DNA of 40,192 nt from a virus. The stretch's first letter is position 1, and the number at the start of each line of letters is the position of its first letter. Location: positions 1-40,192 of IMG/VR virus record IMGVR_UViG_3300005253_000628, one strand, 5' to 3'. The position numbers were made by a program, and so were the translations under genes. The notes beneath the pieces were generated by a model. The model saw only the letters and a list, made by a program, of their open reading frames with translations. It had not been told where the DNA came from and ran no database searches. This document shows, in pieces, positions 11,769 through 25,387 of this stretch.

Positions 11769-11806
11769 GATGTTGGTAAGCGAACTGGAACTGGAGGTAT
11801 CCCATT

Positions 11807-11919: not shown

Positions 11920-12180
11920 GTGAGTGAAGGAAACTGGAACATCGCAGATACGGACAATGGCGCGGTTGAAATCAAGGTCAATGGCGAGTCCATTGGCACT
12001 GCTCAACCGACGGACACACTGAGGGACGTGGTAAGGAAATACGCTACGGAGCGTGGCCTCCGCACCTTCAGTGTGTATGTGGACGGACAGCGACTTGACC
12101 CCTCACCGGCAGCCCTTGGGGGCACGCTGGCGGGGCGTCACATCCTGGAAATCGTCGCCAAGGACGTGCGGGGCAACTAA
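11920..12180 (+). CDS. Ubiquitin-like (beta-grasp) protein
   Basis: The 86-aa product reads as a beta-grasp fold: strand-turn-strand (about residues 15-28, VEIKVNGESIG), an amphipathic helix (34-45, LRDVVRKYATER), then YVDGQRLDPS (53-62), a short segment, and a final strand (73-82, RHILEIVAKD). This matches small ubiquitin-like modifiers, and genes for an E2-like protein, an E1-like enzyme and a JAB peptidase follow in order. I chose GTG 11920 because AGGAGG lies 5-6 nt upstream; the longer ORF from 11770 would include unrelated sequence. The C-terminus is VRGN, not GG, so it may need trimming or may use another terminal residue. Ubl identity is inference from fold pattern and neighbourhood. 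Confidence 0.7.
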   Translation: MSEGNWNIADTDNGAVEIKVNGESIGTAQPTDTLRDVVRKYATERGLRTFSVYVDGQRLDPSPAALGGTLAGRHILEIVAKDVRGN

Positions 12181-12272
12181 GACCCCTGCGTGCCGTCTCC
12201 TGGTTATAGGTCTGGGCATGATTACCAATAGCATGCACTCGCCAAAGGCTAGTAAGGGGACGGTATGAAGTG

Positions 12273-12440
12273 GTCTCATTCTCTCACTGGAGACACCCAG
12301 AGTCGCCTAATGGATTCTCGCTTGTAAGTCGCCATTAGGGAAGGCAAGGGTGGGGTGAGAGGTTGGAGGAGGCTTGAGGACTCGCCAAAGTCCAGCGGCA
12401 GGTAGGGGCGAAAGCCGATATGGGGGAACCTACCCTCTGG
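12273..12440 (+). ncRNA. Candidate structured RNA inside the Ubl module
   Basis: The 295 bases between the Ubl and E2-like genes hold no convincing gene. They show four stems in order: GTCTC/GAGAC (12273-12277 with 12290-12294), CCTAATGG/CCATTAGG (12306-12313 with 12332-12339, perfect), GGACT/AGTCC (12378-12382 with 12389-12393), and CCAG..GGTAGG/CCTACC..CTGG (12392-12395, 12401-12406 with 12429-12434, 12437-12440) enclosing GGC-GAAA-GCC. The last stem shares two bases with the third, so they may alternate. Such an array suggests a leader or small RNA. No tail of Ts marks an end. Confidence 0.35.
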
Positions 12441-12475
12441 TGGGAGAATGAGGCTTTTATACTTTACAGGAGGCA

Positions 12476-13831
12476 ATGATGCCAAGAGCAGACATGAGGA
12501 TTCGCATTCGACGGGATGCAGCTACTAGGTCGGGCTATAGGTTCAACTGGAGTGAGTTCGGGATGCCTTCCCTAGCTATCTTCAAGCAGTGCTTGACTCA
12601 GGAGCAAAGACGACTTAACTCGACCTATACCTGGAGTTCATGGACTACCCAGCAGGCAGCCATATGGTACATGATTCACCAGCACTATACCTGCCAACAG
12701 ATGGCAGACCTGCTGGGCAAGGCTACGCTGCTTGACCGTGCATCACAGGTAGGCACCTGTGCCATCATGGGTGAGGACTTCTCCCGTCATGCCAATCCCT
12801 TTGACAGTTGCTACCTGAACATGGGTGGCAGCATGTTCAAGCTACAACCTGTAGCTATCGCAGATGTGACTCAGCCCCTACGCTTGATGCGAGAGCGAGT
12901 ACAACAGGAGACACAGGCAACACGGGATGAAATACTTGCAGCTGCTGGAAGGGAAGCTGGAATAATAACTAATGCAGCGGAGGAGACCAGGGTTAGGGTG
13001 GAACATGAGTTGCAAGCGACTGAGCGGGACAGGGGTATAAGCCTGCCAGCATGGATGCGACATGCCGACCACTTGCCAATTATGTTCCATGACAACTACT
13101 CCTTCCCCATCGAGATAGGTATACGACTGGATTTCACTATAGGGGTGTTCTTCTTCATCCATGGTGAGACTATCTATGAGTGGGATAATATCCATCCAAC
13201 CCGTATCAGACCCTTAATCTGGATGAAGATGCACCCCATTACTGGACGGTACAATCTGGAGGCTGCCAGATTGGACACTTCCTATCCTGGTGACTTGCCT
13301 CACATGAGTCATACTCAGGCCTGCTTAGCACCTACAGGCCTACCAGAGCACATCGGGAACCAAGATGACCTCTTCCGACTCAGGGGCGCTATAGGCCGAT
13401 GCTATACTCGCATCCACATGAATTCCCTACTATGTAGTCCGGATACTTGGTCTCATGAAGTCCGACGGTCTACACCCGATGCAGTCCTAACCTTCTGGAG
13501 GGAGTCTAACCATGGGCACGATATTCCTAGGAATGATGCCGGTGAAGTAGACCCAGCATACTTTCACGCTGATAGGGTAGTATCCACAACAGAGGAGCGA
13601 CGAGCAACTTGGGAGTTAGAGAGACTCGATAGGCCTACTGGGAGAACCACAGGGGAACAGCGCTTAGAGGAGCACCGAGCAGAAATAGTAGCAGGCGGTA
13701 TTGGCCGTCTAGATGTGGCAACAGCACAGACAGTGCCCCCATTAACACCAGAGCAGACGGCAGCAGCCGTAGATGAGAATGAGGCAAATGAGACAGAGGG
13801 AGAAGAGGAGAGAGACGATGGCACGGTATGA
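12476..13831 (+). CDS. E2-like conjugating-enzyme protein with long extensions
   Basis: The 451-aa product has an N-terminal domain with a possible HTH (about 57-82), a helical coiled-coil stretch (about 133-187), a beta-rich domain (about 205-320) and a Thr/Glu-rich acidic tail (from about 390). In the middle domain, WMKMHPITG (249-257), then YPGDLP and PHMSHTQACLAP (275-286) resemble the HP...C...L active-site loop of E2-fold enzymes; C283 is the candidate catalytic Cys, with H276 and H279 nearby. A helix (297-318) follows. Order Ubl, E2-like, E1-like, JAB supports it. AGGAGG precedes ATG 12476 (ATG 12479 is an alternative). An E2 call remains inference; the extensions are not typical. Confidence 0.55.
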   Translation: MMPRADMRIRIRRDAATRSGYRFNWSEFGMPSLAIFKQCLTQEQRRLNSTYTWSSWTTQQAAIWYMIHQHYTCQQMADLLGKATLLDRASQVGTCAIMGEDFSRHANPFDSCYLNMGGSMFKLQPVAIADVTQPLRLMRERVQQETQATRDEILAAAGREAGIITNAAEETRVRVEHELQATERDRGISLPAWMRHADHLPIMFHDNYSFPIEIGIRLDFTIGVFFFIHGETIYEWDNIHPTRIRPLIWMKMHPITGRYNLEAARLDTSYPGDLPHMSHTQACLAPTGLPEHIGNQDDLFRLRGAIGRCYTRIHMNSLLCSPDTWSHEVRRSTPDAVLTFWRESNHGHDIPRNDAGEVDPAYFHADRVVSTTEERRATWELERLDRPTGRTTGEQRLEEHRAEIVAGGIGRLDVATAQTVPPLTPEQTAAAVDENEANETEGEEERDDGTV

Positions 13832-14558
13832 CCGACAGGAACCACTTAGCATAGTGCGTGACCAGTCCGTAGCTATCATAGGCTGCGGGGGCATAGGTTC
13901 ATGGGCTGCGTACTATCTCACATTGGCGGGGGTGAAAGAGCTACACCTGTTTGACGGTGACAATGTGAGTGAGCATAACCTGAATAGGTTACCGCTACCT
14001 ATAGGCGCAGTAGGTAAACCGAAGTCCAGTGCCCTAGCATCGTTTCTGGGGCAATTCAACAGAGAGGTAAGGTTCCGCCCCCATGCTGAGTTTGAGGTAG
14101 TAGGCCAAGAGTTTGAGGATGGCATAGGGAGTCTCCATCTTAGGACACTCCATAGCACAGACTACTGCCTAGTCTGCACGGACACCTGGAAATCCCGCAA
14201 GATGGTTTGGGATGCTTGCCAACAGGCAGGGATTAAGTACCTAGAGGTAGGCGCAGAGGGCAACGATGCATCCCTCAGTCCCTCTCCTCCTGAGTGGGTG
14301 ATGCCTAACGAAGCTGAGCCTGGGTACCAGCATGTACCTGTATTCGTAGGGCCATGTGCAGCTATCGCGGCCATGGCGGTGTACTACGTCCTACACCAGC
14401 AGGTACCTACCAAGACTTTCAGAATCGGATGGAAGGACAACAATCTTACCTTAGCTACATGGGAGGAACCAGATGGCAAGGAAGGGAAACAGACACGCAA
14501 GGAAGAAGGCCAAGCGCCTAATACACCTGTTCAACCAGACCACCAGGACGCAGGATGA
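13818..14558 (+). CDS. E1-like / ThiF-family adenylating enzyme
   Basis: The 246-aa product has a Rossmann nucleotide-binding site GCGGIG (22-27), then FDGD (45-48), EHNLNR (52-57, the Asn/Arg of the family), K67 and CTDTWKSR (120-127 with the Mg-binding Asp). These are the hallmarks of ThiF/MoeB/E1 enzymes that adenylate the C-terminus of a Ubl. Length about 246 aa fits the short ThiF type. No crossover-loop catalytic Cys is obvious; C180 in GPC and C120/C117 are the candidates, and no CxxC zinc pairs are present. The start ATG 13818 has GAGGAGAG upstream and overlaps the E2-like gene by 14 nt. The C-terminus is a Lys/Glu/Pro-rich tail. Confidence 0.9.
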   Translation: MARYDRQEPLSIVRDQSVAIIGCGGIGSWAAYYLTLAGVKELHLFDGDNVSEHNLNRLPLPIGAVGKPKSSALASFLGQFNREVRFRPHAEFEVVGQEFEDGIGSLHLRTLHSTDYCLVCTDTWKSRKMVWDACQQAGIKYLEVGAEGNDASLSPSPPEWVMPNEAEPGYQHVPVFVGPCAAIAAMAVYYVLHQQVPTKTFRIGWKDNNLTLATWEEPDGKEGKQTRKEEGQAPNTPVQPDHQDAG

Positions 14559-15489
14559 AGACCAAGAACTGTTCGCACTAGAGGCCGAGCTAGGCGTCAA
14601 CAGGAGCACAAGGAAGACTAACGGTGGTGGAGCAGACGATGAGGATGCTGCTGGCCTCTGGCATGGTGTAGGCTTTGGTGGTGTACTCCATGGTACACAG
14701 CAACCCAAGAAGGAAGTCTTTTGGAGCTGTGCTGGTGACGTGAAGGGCTGCCCCATAGCACCAGAACCTAAGATTACCATGCCCGTGGAGATGTGGCAGT
14801 CACTCTGGCAGCTAACGGCACTCTCCAATAATGAGTGGATAGCCTACCTCATTGGTAAGTTAGAGGACGGTAAGGCTCTCATCGAAGAGGTCTACTTTCC
14901 TGAACAGACCGTCACAGGTACATCGTGCGAAGTGCCAACTGAGGTACAGGCAAAGCCTAATACCATTGGGGCCATCCACTCCCACGTCGGCATGGGAGCC
15001 TTCTGGTCTAAGACCGATGAAGACCATGCTAACTGGCCCATAGAAATCGTCCTGAACCGCAAGGGCGACTACAAGGCCCTCATGCGAGTGAAGCTGGATT
15101 GTAGTCGGTGGAGTAGGGTAGAGTGCAAGCTAACCATATCTGCTAGTCTGCCCTCCAGGGCCATGCTAGAATCACTTGAGGAGTCTATCAAGAAGGGAAA
15201 GGAACATGAGAAACCTACGGCAATCACTGTCTATCAAACCCCCGTTGCCGTCCAGCGAGGACAGTACCAGAATGCCTATGCCTCTTGGTGCAACGTCTGC
15301 CAAAAGATGCACGGGTTGCCTCGTTGTCAAAATGTCTGCGCCATCTGTGGGAATCCAGAGTGGGCAAACCATGAGTGCCCGACGGAGCGATGTCAGGAGT
15401 GTAGGACGTGGCATAGGCCTAGTGAGGTCTGCCGTCCTTCTGATGATACTCTTCCTCCCGATGGAGGCATACGCTACGGATTGGTCTAA
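14473..15489 (+). CDS. JAB/JAMM metallopeptidase with C-terminal Cys-rich domain
   Basis: The 338-aa product carries an intact JAMM zinc site: E121 in NEWIAYLIG, then HSHVGMGAFWSKTD (169-182), i.e. HxH-7-S-xx-D. This is the active metallo-isopeptidase motif that cleaves ubiquitin-like proteins from substrates or trims Ubl precursors. Residues 1-50 are basic and probably linker-like. The last 65 residues hold a Cys-rich region: CNVC (273-276), CQNVCAIC (285-292), CPTERCQEC (302-310), C320 and nearby His, suggesting two zinc sites. The gene overlaps the E1 gene by 86 nt in another frame, so these genes are tightly coupled. RBS: GGAGG at 14463. Confidence 0.85.
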   Translation: MARKGNRHARKKAKRLIHLFNQTTRTQDEDQELFALEAELGVNRSTRKTNGGGADDEDAAGLWHGVGFGGVLHGTQQPKKEVFWSCAGDVKGCPIAPEPKITMPVEMWQSLWQLTALSNNEWIAYLIGKLEDGKALIEEVYFPEQTVTGTSCEVPTEVQAKPNTIGAIHSHVGMGAFWSKTDEDHANWPIEIVLNRKGDYKALMRVKLDCSRWSRVECKLTISASLPSRAMLESLEESIKKGKEHEKPTAITVYQTPVAVQRGQYQNAYASWCNVCQKMHGLPRCQNVCAICGNPEWANHECPTERCQECRTWHRPSEVCRPSDDTLPPDGGIRYGLV

Positions 15490-22731: not shown

Positions 22732-22892
22732 GTGCCTCCTCTGATTTCGTCATCGGTCACGCGGAGCGCTGCGACTACTGTATTGAGGTAGAAGACCGTA
22801 CCGATATAGACGATGCAGAGAAGTTTCGGTTGCAGTCTGAGCATGCTTGGGAATCTGTCGTAGATGCAGCCGTTTCACAGCAAGGAGGATAA
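22728..22892 (+). CDS. 54-aa small acidic protein
   Basis: MSASSDFVIGHAERCDYCIEVEDR with a CDYC pair, then a helical acidic rest. ATGA overlap with the upstream gene; its end contains the ribosome binding site (AAGGAGG) of the polymerase gene. Function unknown. Confidence 0.5.
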   Translation: MSASSDFVIGHAERCDYCIEVEDRTDIDDAEKFRLQSEHAWESVVDAAVSQQGG

Positions 22893-22894
22893 GC

Positions 22895-25387
22895 GTGTTC
22901 GAGGACTTTGCCCATCCAACTGAACAGCCAGACCCCTGCTCTACCTGTCCCTACTCCAAGACTCACAACAAGGGACCTGGAGTAGGGTTCTGCCCTGGGC
23001 GTGGGGACATCGAGAAGGCAGAGATAATCTACATAGGTGAAGGACCTGGTGGGAGTGAGATAGGTTGGGCTAAGTGTCCAAAGTGTCAAAAGCAAGGCGA
23101 CTTCACCTATTGCCCTGCCTGCAATCTTAAAGCACAACCCTGGGCATCGCCCTTCGTAGGCAGGTCAGGTAAGCTACGGAACCTGATGCTGGAGAAGGCC
23201 TCCATCCATCCCTCCAAGGTCTATAGTACTAACATCTTGAAGTGTAGGCCTCCCTTCAACAAGTATCCCTATGGGGATATACAGGCTCAGGCTGAGGCTC
23301 ACTGCATTCACAACTTCCTGGCTCCTGAACTAAAAGCCCTCGCAGCTAGAGAGGGTCCGCAACCGACCATCATTGCGGCAGGAGCACAACCGTCTAGGGT
23401 TCTGGTGAACCTGGATGGCATCAAGGAAAGGCGGGGGTATGTGTACGTTACAGGTGATTACCCACTCAACGCACAGGTTGCAGCCGAAGGGATTGAATGG
23501 CTCCCTCCAGTTGTTCCTACCATACACCCTGCCTTCATGTTTCATGGCAAGACCAAGAACTCAGACGATGAGGTTCGGAACCTGATTCCCTTGACCATTG
23601 GGGACTACATGAAGGCTATGCGTATCGCCAAGACGCAGGAGCTACGTCGGGTCAACGTGCAGACCAACAACAGCATGGACCTCAAGTTCGCTCTGGATGC
23701 CATAGCCGATGAGGTAGACAAGGCAGGTAGGCTGACGCTGGACTTCGAGTGGGACCCTGATGCTAAGGTCCGAGTACCCCATGTCGTTGGCGTAGGAGTC
23801 CATGACGTAGTGTACTGTGTACCCTGGAAGGATGGGGATACTGATATTCTAAGGGTATTCATCTTAGCGAGGGCACTCACTTACAACTCCAAGTTTAAGG
23901 TAGTAGCTCATAATGGCCTGACTGCTGACTTCATCCTCATGGAGGAGTTGGGGATATTTGAGAGCGTAGAGCAATTCTTGCCCTGCCTCAGGGACACCAT
24001 GCTCGATGCTCATATCGTCTACCCTGATGAACTCTCCAAACTAGAGTTCTGGGGGTCTGTCGTCACTGACCTCTGTTTCTGGAAGGACCAGAAGGAAGTA
24101 GGCAACATCTTTACCTACTGCGGGCAGGACGTGTACGCTGCTGACGTACTCCATGCCTCCACGGACACGGAGATTACAGACCTAGGACTGGAGAAGTTAG
24201 TACCCATCCACAACCATTGTCAGCTGGCCTTGTATCGGATGCACGAGCTAGGGGTGAAGGTAGACAAGAATCGCCTCAAGGCTGCCAAGAAGGAGATTGA
24301 CGATGAGCGTGATGCCGCTATTGCTGGTACCCCTTTCGAGGCCATGGAGAACTGGCGGTCTAACGAGCAGATTCATGTGTTCTTCAAGGAGAAGAAGGGG
24401 AAGCTGCCTCGTCACCGTGTTACCAAGAAAGAGACCGTGGACAAGTTCATTCTTCATAAGTGGTCGGCGCAGGGTGATGAAGATGCTTCGTCTCTACTGA
24501 CCATCAGGGAGTTGGACAAGGGTACGAGTACCTACATCAACCCCTACCTCAAGCTGATGGACGACCAGGGCTTCCTCCATGCTGACCTGCTGATGACCAG
24601 GCAGGGTACAGGTCGCATCAGTGCCGTGAAGCCTGGTCTGCTCCAGGTACCCAAGCGGTCAAAGAAGCTGAAGAAGTTAGTCCGTGGTTGCTTCATACCC
24701 TCACAGCCAGGATGGGTCCTGTGGGAGTGTGACTGGAGCCACATCGAGTTCGACCTGTTCATGCACTTCGCTGGTGCGGAGCGGTACTTCGAGATGCAGA
24801 AGGAAGGGGTAGACATCCACCAGAAGCACGCAGACATGGCGGGCACTGACCGAACCACCGCCAAGATTGTCACCTATGGGACCATTTACAAAGGGGGTCC
24901 GTATGAGATAGCATATGAGGCAGCTTCGCAGGGGTTCAAGGTAGAACCTGAGACCATTGCGAAAGTTCAGACCGTCCTACACGAACAGTGGCCTGAGATT
25001 AAGGCAGCATGGCAGAAGATAGAAGACATCGTTGTAGCGAACAAGGGCCTACTTAGACTGCCCTTCGGACGCATTCGACGATTCAACGGCAAAGCCTCTG
25101 ACTGGATTAACGAAGCCATCGCTACTTGGCCCCAAGGGACCGTCGCTGACATGCTTATACGCTGCATCCCTAAAGTCCACTACGGCATGGTCGAACACAT
25201 GCAGGGACGAGTTAGGCTACCCATCCATGACTCACTCTTTGGTGACTGCCCTCTCAGTGAGGTAGGAGAGGTCAAACAGTTCGTCACCGAGGTCATGGGT
25301 AAGCCATGGCCTGAACTGGGCGGACGGGTAATTGGCGTCGAATTTTCAACTGGCCCTGACTGGGCACATATGGAGGAACTGAAATGA
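22895..25387 (+). CDS. polA: Uracil-DNA-glycosylase-like / family A DNA polymerase fusion
   Basis: The 830-aa product begins with a family 4 UDG-like domain (about 1-220): GEGPG (48-52), PFVGRSGK (86-93), KCRPPFN (116-122) and HPA (211-213), with Cys at 15, 18, 117 and 137 matching the Fe-S set. A CPKC...CPAC insert (61-76) is extra. A 3'-5' exonuclease follows (D283/E285, N340..D345, Y408..D412), then the polymerase: thumb TGRISAVKPGLLQVP (about 572-586), motif A DWSHIEFD (613-620), motif B R653..K657..Y661, motif C HDS (778-780). GTG 22895 has AAGGAGG 6 nt upstream. SPO1-type polymerases have such an N-terminal UDG-like domain. Motif C HDS replaces the common HDE. Confidence 0.92.
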   Translation: MFEDFAHPTEQPDPCSTCPYSKTHNKGPGVGFCPGRGDIEKAEIIYIGEGPGGSEIGWAKCPKCQKQGDFTYCPACNLKAQPWASPFVGRSGKLRNLMLEKASIHPSKVYSTNILKCRPPFNKYPYGDIQAQAEAHCIHNFLAPELKALAAREGPQPTIIAAGAQPSRVLVNLDGIKERRGYVYVTGDYPLNAQVAAEGIEWLPPVVPTIHPAFMFHGKTKNSDDEVRNLIPLTIGDYMKAMRIAKTQELRRVNVQTNNSMDLKFALDAIADEVDKAGRLTLDFEWDPDAKVRVPHVVGVGVHDVVYCVPWKDGDTDILRVFILARALTYNSKFKVVAHNGLTADFILMEELGIFESVEQFLPCLRDTMLDAHIVYPDELSKLEFWGSVVTDLCFWKDQKEVGNIFTYCGQDVYAADVLHASTDTEITDLGLEKLVPIHNHCQLALYRMHELGVKVDKNRLKAAKKEIDDERDAAIAGTPFEAMENWRSNEQIHVFFKEKKGKLPRHRVTKKETVDKFILHKWSAQGDEDASSLLTIRELDKGTSTYINPYLKLMDDQGFLHADLLMTRQGTGRISAVKPGLLQVPKRSKKLKKLVRGCFIPSQPGWVLWECDWSHIEFDLFMHFAGAERYFEMQKEGVDIHQKHADMAGTDRTTAKIVTYGTIYKGGPYEIAYEAASQGFKVEPETIAKVQTVLHEQWPEIKAAWQKIEDIVVANKGLLRLPFGRIRRFNGKASDWINEAIATWPQGTVADMLIRCIPKVHYGMVEHMQGRVRLPIHDSLFGDCPLSEVGEVKQFVTEVMGKPWPELGGRVIGVEFSTGPDWAHMEELK

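Follow-up and report, generated by a model that had tools for sequence, protein, structure and literature searches.

A putative virus-encoded ubiquitin-like conjugation cassette and its relatives in viral contigs

Described systems and the viral cassette

Among prokaryotes, conjugation of ubiquitin-like proteins (Ubls) has been described in cells and on plasmids, and acts in antiviral defense in several of the studied cases. Judging from sequence, four neighboring genes on the + strand of the IMG/VR virus record IMGVR_UViG_3300005253_000628 likely form a working Ubl conjugation and deconjugation cassette that belongs to the virus itself, with no particular target implied. They encode a Ubl, an E2-like protein, a ThiF-type E1, and a JAMM peptidase, and are located at positions 11920–15489 of the 40,192-base stretch that was analyzed as a whole (hereafter, the window); the record is classed as linear and may be incomplete. 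A complete virus-owned cascade reverses the defense picture, as the question becomes what the virus tags. Since some crAss-like phages carrying a distant version of the cassette are already in culture, this question can be addressed by experiment.

The preliminary description of this DNA named the plasmid PRTRC set and the bacterial Bil operons as the closest parallels. The PRTRC cassette (type 6d; Iyer et al., 2006) likewise has separate genes for a Ubl, an E2-like protein, a ThiF-type E1, and a JAB peptidase, with a single Ubl ending in a C-terminal Gly. However, the window scores 20.2 bits for PRTRC_ThiF against a cut-off of 144.75 bits and 13 bits for PRTRC_A against a cut-off of 101.8 bits. 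Moreover, the type 6d E2 has no upstream His and a conserved His after the Cys, whereas the E2-like family of the window has an upstream His (His276, in at least 90% of 25 members) and no near-invariant downstream His. The antiphage operon BilABCD also combines a Ubl, an E2, an E1, and a JAMM protease, but BilA consists of two Ubl domains, BilD of two adenylation domains, one inactive and one active, and a Cys domain, and BilB carries a CEHH motif (PMC11354881); the window instead encodes a single-domain Ubl of 86 amino acids (aa) and a 246-aa E1 without a Cys domain. Both parallels hold as functional likenesses, although the window shows none of the defining features of either system that were tested.

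A phage Ubl partnered with a JAB peptidase is also found in the TAPI/TAPK tail-assembly proteins of lambdoid and T1 phages, where E1 and E2 are absent and the JAB is fused to NlpC/P60 within the tail operon (PMC1779556). By contrast, the window has the full set including E1 and E2, located outside the virion genes, and its JAB has no NlpC match. PADLOC returned only generic E1-E2 matches. Since the tested PRTRC and Bil features are lacking, and sulfur-relay partners were not found either (see below), the cassette is best regarded as a variant of the Ubl-conjugation kind that stands outside those families. The literature covered contained no account of a Ubl cascade encoded by a phage, although subscription papers and preprints outside the search may hold earlier mentions.

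The four components

Two of the components are recognizable from the window sequence itself. The E1 matches Pfam ThiF (E = 3.9e-28) and contains the GCGGIG and EHNLNR motifs that had been pointed out before, together with a TD motif and, at the N-terminus, an RQ (Arg-finger) motif. The adenylation residues N69, R72, K84, and D137 (numbering of a 261-aa open reading frame, ORF) are present in all 27 E1s, of which 26 also keep the Arg of the Arg-finger. At 246 aa, the protein is too short to hold a Cys domain, and its nearest PDB relatives by profile are ThiF, UBA5, TcdA, and MoeB. The JAB protein is barely above the curated cut-off of Prok-JAB (26.2 vs. 25 bits), and AMSH-like deubiquitinases (E = 1e-4) rank first among its PDB relatives, followed by archaeal JAMM1. 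Its JAMM site is intact as previously reported, with an additional Glu upstream (E121), and the Glu, both His, Ser, and Asp are conserved in all 26 family members. The Cys/His-rich C-terminal extension of the window JAB varies among close relatives, with only one CxxC cluster in L007 and no extension in L002.

The Ubl and the E2-like protein matched no curated family. For the Ubl, the proposed beta-grasp fold was borne out by structure prediction: the AlphaFold model has a mean predicted local distance difference test score (pLDDT) of 74 and the beta-grasp order of elements, and all 50 PDB matches listed by Foldseek are ubiquitin, SUMO, or related Ubls (best E = 1.4e-3, template modeling score ~0.55). 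The C-terminal Gly characteristic of conjugation Ubls is present at 23 of 26 family loci, either as the last residue (12 loci) or followed by 1–6 variable residues (11 loci, including the window with Gly85 and Asn86), and is missing at three. Such a pattern is expected if the Ubl is made as a precursor whose tails are clipped, and the JAMM enzyme is probably the clipper.

The E2-like protein was approached through its family. Cys283 is the sole invariant residue among 25 members, and Gly117, Pro191, His276, Asn314, and Trp379 are near-invariant (His276 and Asn314 at 90% or more); the PHMSHTQACL loop noted in the preliminary description is present, and its His276 and Cys283 are these conserved positions. 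In a profile–profile comparison with four human E2 sequences, the 25-member profile matched at E = 0.0071. In this alignment, the pHyh...C loop of the family falls on yHPN...C of the human E2s along with the following helix, with the active-site Cys in register. Decoy families gave E values of 0.11–0.48 in the same comparison, and none of 600 column- or block-shuffled control profiles scored as high as the real one. Restricting the family to the 18 sequences that are not of the window type gave E = 9e-4. Among these more distant relatives, the E2 of L033 (HPNVNDDGMVCLG) has a UQ_con match across the active-site part that is below the cut-off (E = 0.0038), and the E2 of L042 carries the textbook motif HPNISDSGLVCLG; 9 of 10 PDB matches of the latter are E2s in register with HPN...C, each being weak (E = 0.8–1.8). 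Standalone E2s with canonical HPN...C motifs bear on the diversification of E2 enzymes.

Several observations weigh against a working conjugation cassette. The seven window-type E2-like sequences alone do not match the human E2s (E = 0.37), the comparison E2 profile consisted of four human sequences, and the model of the window protein is of low confidence (mean pLDDT 57) and gave no structure match in Foldseek. In addition, the window Ubl terminates in RGN instead of GG, the L007 Ubl has Ala in place of the conserved Gly, no Cys is invariant across the E1 family (n = 27) and hence there is no invariant catalytic Cys, and no E3, proteasome, or known target was recognized for the cassette. On the other hand, the window-type E2-like sequences match the rest of the family at E = 4e-7 (profile–profile). 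Because the window type is unmatched alone and matched via its relatives, the E2 identity of the window protein rests on the wider family, in which the profile aligns with E2s in register and the Cys is invariant. The kinship of the 451-aa protein, previously proposed as an E2-fold candidate, with E2s is therefore backed by the profile and catalytic residues of its family and not by its own structure model, and its designation as a putative E2-like protein is supported through these relatives.

Most E2-like proteins (24 of 27) carry a Trp near their C-terminus, and 17 of 26 Ubls have one near their N-terminus; it frequently occurs as VW[STG] and could mark a docking peptide. A general viral docking motif is not claimed, as a loose form of the pattern shows just a slight excess at other C-termini. 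The idea of a hub shared with the JAB was dropped because the JAB Trp lies ahead of a conserved Cys and seems to belong to the domain itself.

Gene layout and relatives

All four ORFs were recovered on the + strand where the preliminary description had placed them (Table 1), and the overlap it noted among the last three genes amounts to 14 bp (E2/E1) and 86 bp (E1/JAB). An AGGAGG sequence lies a few bases 5' of the GTG at 11920, and another precedes the E2-like start. This GTG matches the start position in homologs, and the longer ATG ORF beginning at 11770 is probably not the true start of the Ubl gene. The gap between the Ubl and E2-like genes (12181–12475, 295 bp) is longer than in the close relatives inspected (~120 bp in L002, ~55 bp in L004, and overlapping in L007).

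Table 1. Features of the putative Ubl cassette (window coordinates)
Feature	Position	Strand	Details or basis
Ubl, 86 aa, beta-grasp	11920..12180	+	Starts with GTG; ends in ...AKDVRGN, where one further residue follows the conserved Gly85
E2-like protein, 451 aa	12476..13831	+	N-terminal region; predicted long helix ~132–184; UBC-like region ~190–345; conserved Trp379 towards C-terminus
E2 active-site loop, His276 to Cys283 (HMSHTQAC)	13301..13324	+	Family alignment
E1, ThiF/MoeB-type adenylating enzyme, 246 aa	13818..14558	+	Complete adenylation residues; no E1 Cys domain
E1 nucleotide-binding motif GCGGIG	13881..13898	+	Sequence
JAB/JAMM peptidase, 338 aa	14473..15489	+	E121, HSH169–171, S179, D182 intact
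JAMM motif HSH-x7-S-xx-D	14977..15018	+	Sequence
JAB C-terminal Cys/His-rich extension, three zinc-knuckle-like CxxC clusters	15289..15432	+	Sequence

Rather than being confined to a single phage, the module is widespread in viral contigs. Single-sequence scans of viral contigs with the E1 and E2 found no relatives, but a search with the JAB gave a first one, and an alignment of both JABs gave three more viruses; these first four relatives all carry the Ubl, E2-like, ThiF, and JAB genes in that order. An E1 alignment reached 59 loci, some of which are the same records fetched again, and with hidden Markov models of the four genes the window type gained L010 and L012. This brings to six the number of other viral contigs that share all four genes in identical order (L002, L004, L006, L007, L010, and L012), and none of these close relatives has ThiF and JAB without the Ubl and the E2-like gene. 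In the E1 tree, the window type forms one well-supported group (98/96). A further ~18 contigs have an E1 and an E2-like ORF, most of them also with a JAB and a Ubl candidate where contig ends allow, and the gene order varies among these distant relatives (e.g., Ubl-E1-E2-JAB in L042). Two scans of genome contigs with JAB alignments found no cellular relative. The pairwise distance matrices of the four families are correlated (Mantel r = 0.77–0.90, all p = 0.001), which is in part accounted for by shared virus ancestry. The cassette is retained as a unit in no fewer than two dozen other viral genomes, and this suggests protein tagging by the viruses themselves in the course of infection.

A more distant version occurs in crAss-like phages (including crAss001, DAC15, and Kolpuevirus) and in Flavobacterium phage Fpv3 (loci L067, L068, L069, and L070). 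These clusters resemble the window in having a Ubl-like protein with a beta-grasp-like N-terminus, an E2-like protein with an invariant H-S-H...C, a JAB, and a ThiF-type E1 in a single run, the Ubl and E2 being assigned by motif and by eye. They differ in that the order is Ubl-E2-JAB-E1, the Ubl has a long C-terminal extension, and the cluster adjoins a uracil-DNA glycosylase gene. Their E1 forms a separate, distant branch of the E1 tree, and 78 phage records carry an E1 matching that of Kolpuevirus. The genes are annotated as hypothetical, with the E1 often labeled as a "thiamine biosynthesis protein."

Proposed mechanism, possible targets, and genome context

The known chemistry of these families suggests a catalytic order of Ubl, E1, E2, target, and JAMM. 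The JAMM peptidase would clip the residue(s) beyond the conserved Gly of the Ubl where present, which in the window is Asn86. The minimal E1 would then adenylate the Gly, probably as a ThiF/MoeB-like homodimer since the Arg-finger motif is retained. As this E1 has no Cys domain, the Ubl may pass directly, or nearly so, to Cys283 of the E2-like protein, which would transfer it to an amine of the target without a recognizable E3. The JAMM enzyme may also remove the Ubl from the target.

As to the target, our best guess is a protein that acts in DNA replication or in taking over the host early in infection. Replication proteins are the first guess because of the position of the genes and a clamp-like neighbor in a related group, although the window lacks this neighbor. 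Eight relatives (L013, L014, L015, L018, L019, L020, L022, and L024) have a gene for a conserved ~250-aa protein (A11) just upstream of the Ubl (e.g., L018:4787–5539). In comparisons with PDB profiles, four of the six matches of this protein are PCNA at a non-significant E of ~0.5, and a sliding-clamp identity was not accepted. That the cassette serves to modify replication proteins of the virus itself, for instance a sliding clamp, fits with this adjacency and with the module sharing a strand with the replication genes of the window; nevertheless, adjacency is no proof of a substrate, and with the clamp similarity not significant and no such neighbor in the window virus, we consider this reading rather unlikely. 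It is more doubtful still that several cassette lineages attach the Ubl to a sliding clamp or replisome protein of the virus, in parallel to PCNA SUMOylation and ubiquitination; if they do, viruses of prokaryotes run their own Ubl signaling on the replication machinery.

Alternatively, the cassette may act against host defenses such as Bil, Bub, or CBASS, for example by stripping host Ubl from virions while the Ubl, E1, and E2 of the phage compete against their host counterparts. Bacteria use Ubl conjugation against phage assembly, according to work cited in PMC12660748, and the JAMM site is intact. However, the retained catalytic features of the E1, E2, and Ubl exceed the needs of a decoy or a lone deconjugase, and the JAMM co-varies with its own Ubl, which makes a role in counter-defense improbable. 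Exclusion of competitors, in which the phage would, like Bil, tag the virion proteins of other phages infecting the same cell, draws on functional analogy with Bil (PMC11354881) and appears very improbable given that there is no link to structural genes and no Bil-specific feature among those tested. The least probable reading is a sulfur-carrier relay of the ThiS/MoaD/CysO kind, in which the E1 would adenylate the Ubl for thiocarboxylation and the JAB would free the carrier: the E1 is closest by profile to ThiF, UBA5, TcdA, and MoeB, and ThiF-JAB-Ubl sets serving sulfur metabolism are known (PMC1779556), but here the E1 and JAB come together with an E2-like gene whose Cys is invariant, no metabolic neighbors were seen, and the reading is further weakened by searches of 15 contigs (partial ones among them) in which neither rhodanese nor PALP (cysteine-synthase) was matched.

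The window virus also encodes a terminase (~21–30% identical to those of named phages), a portal-like protein, a family A DNA polymerase, a PD-(D/E)XK nuclease, and two AAA ATPases. The placement of the cassette in the early block of a lytic phage, as first described, is plausible because it shares a strand with the replication genes, opposite to the terminase and portal genes, and no tyrosine integrase match was found in the window, although the possible incompleteness of the linear record limits this assignment. In the family A DNA polymerase (22847–25387), the N-terminal side is fused to a uracil-DNA glycosylase domain.

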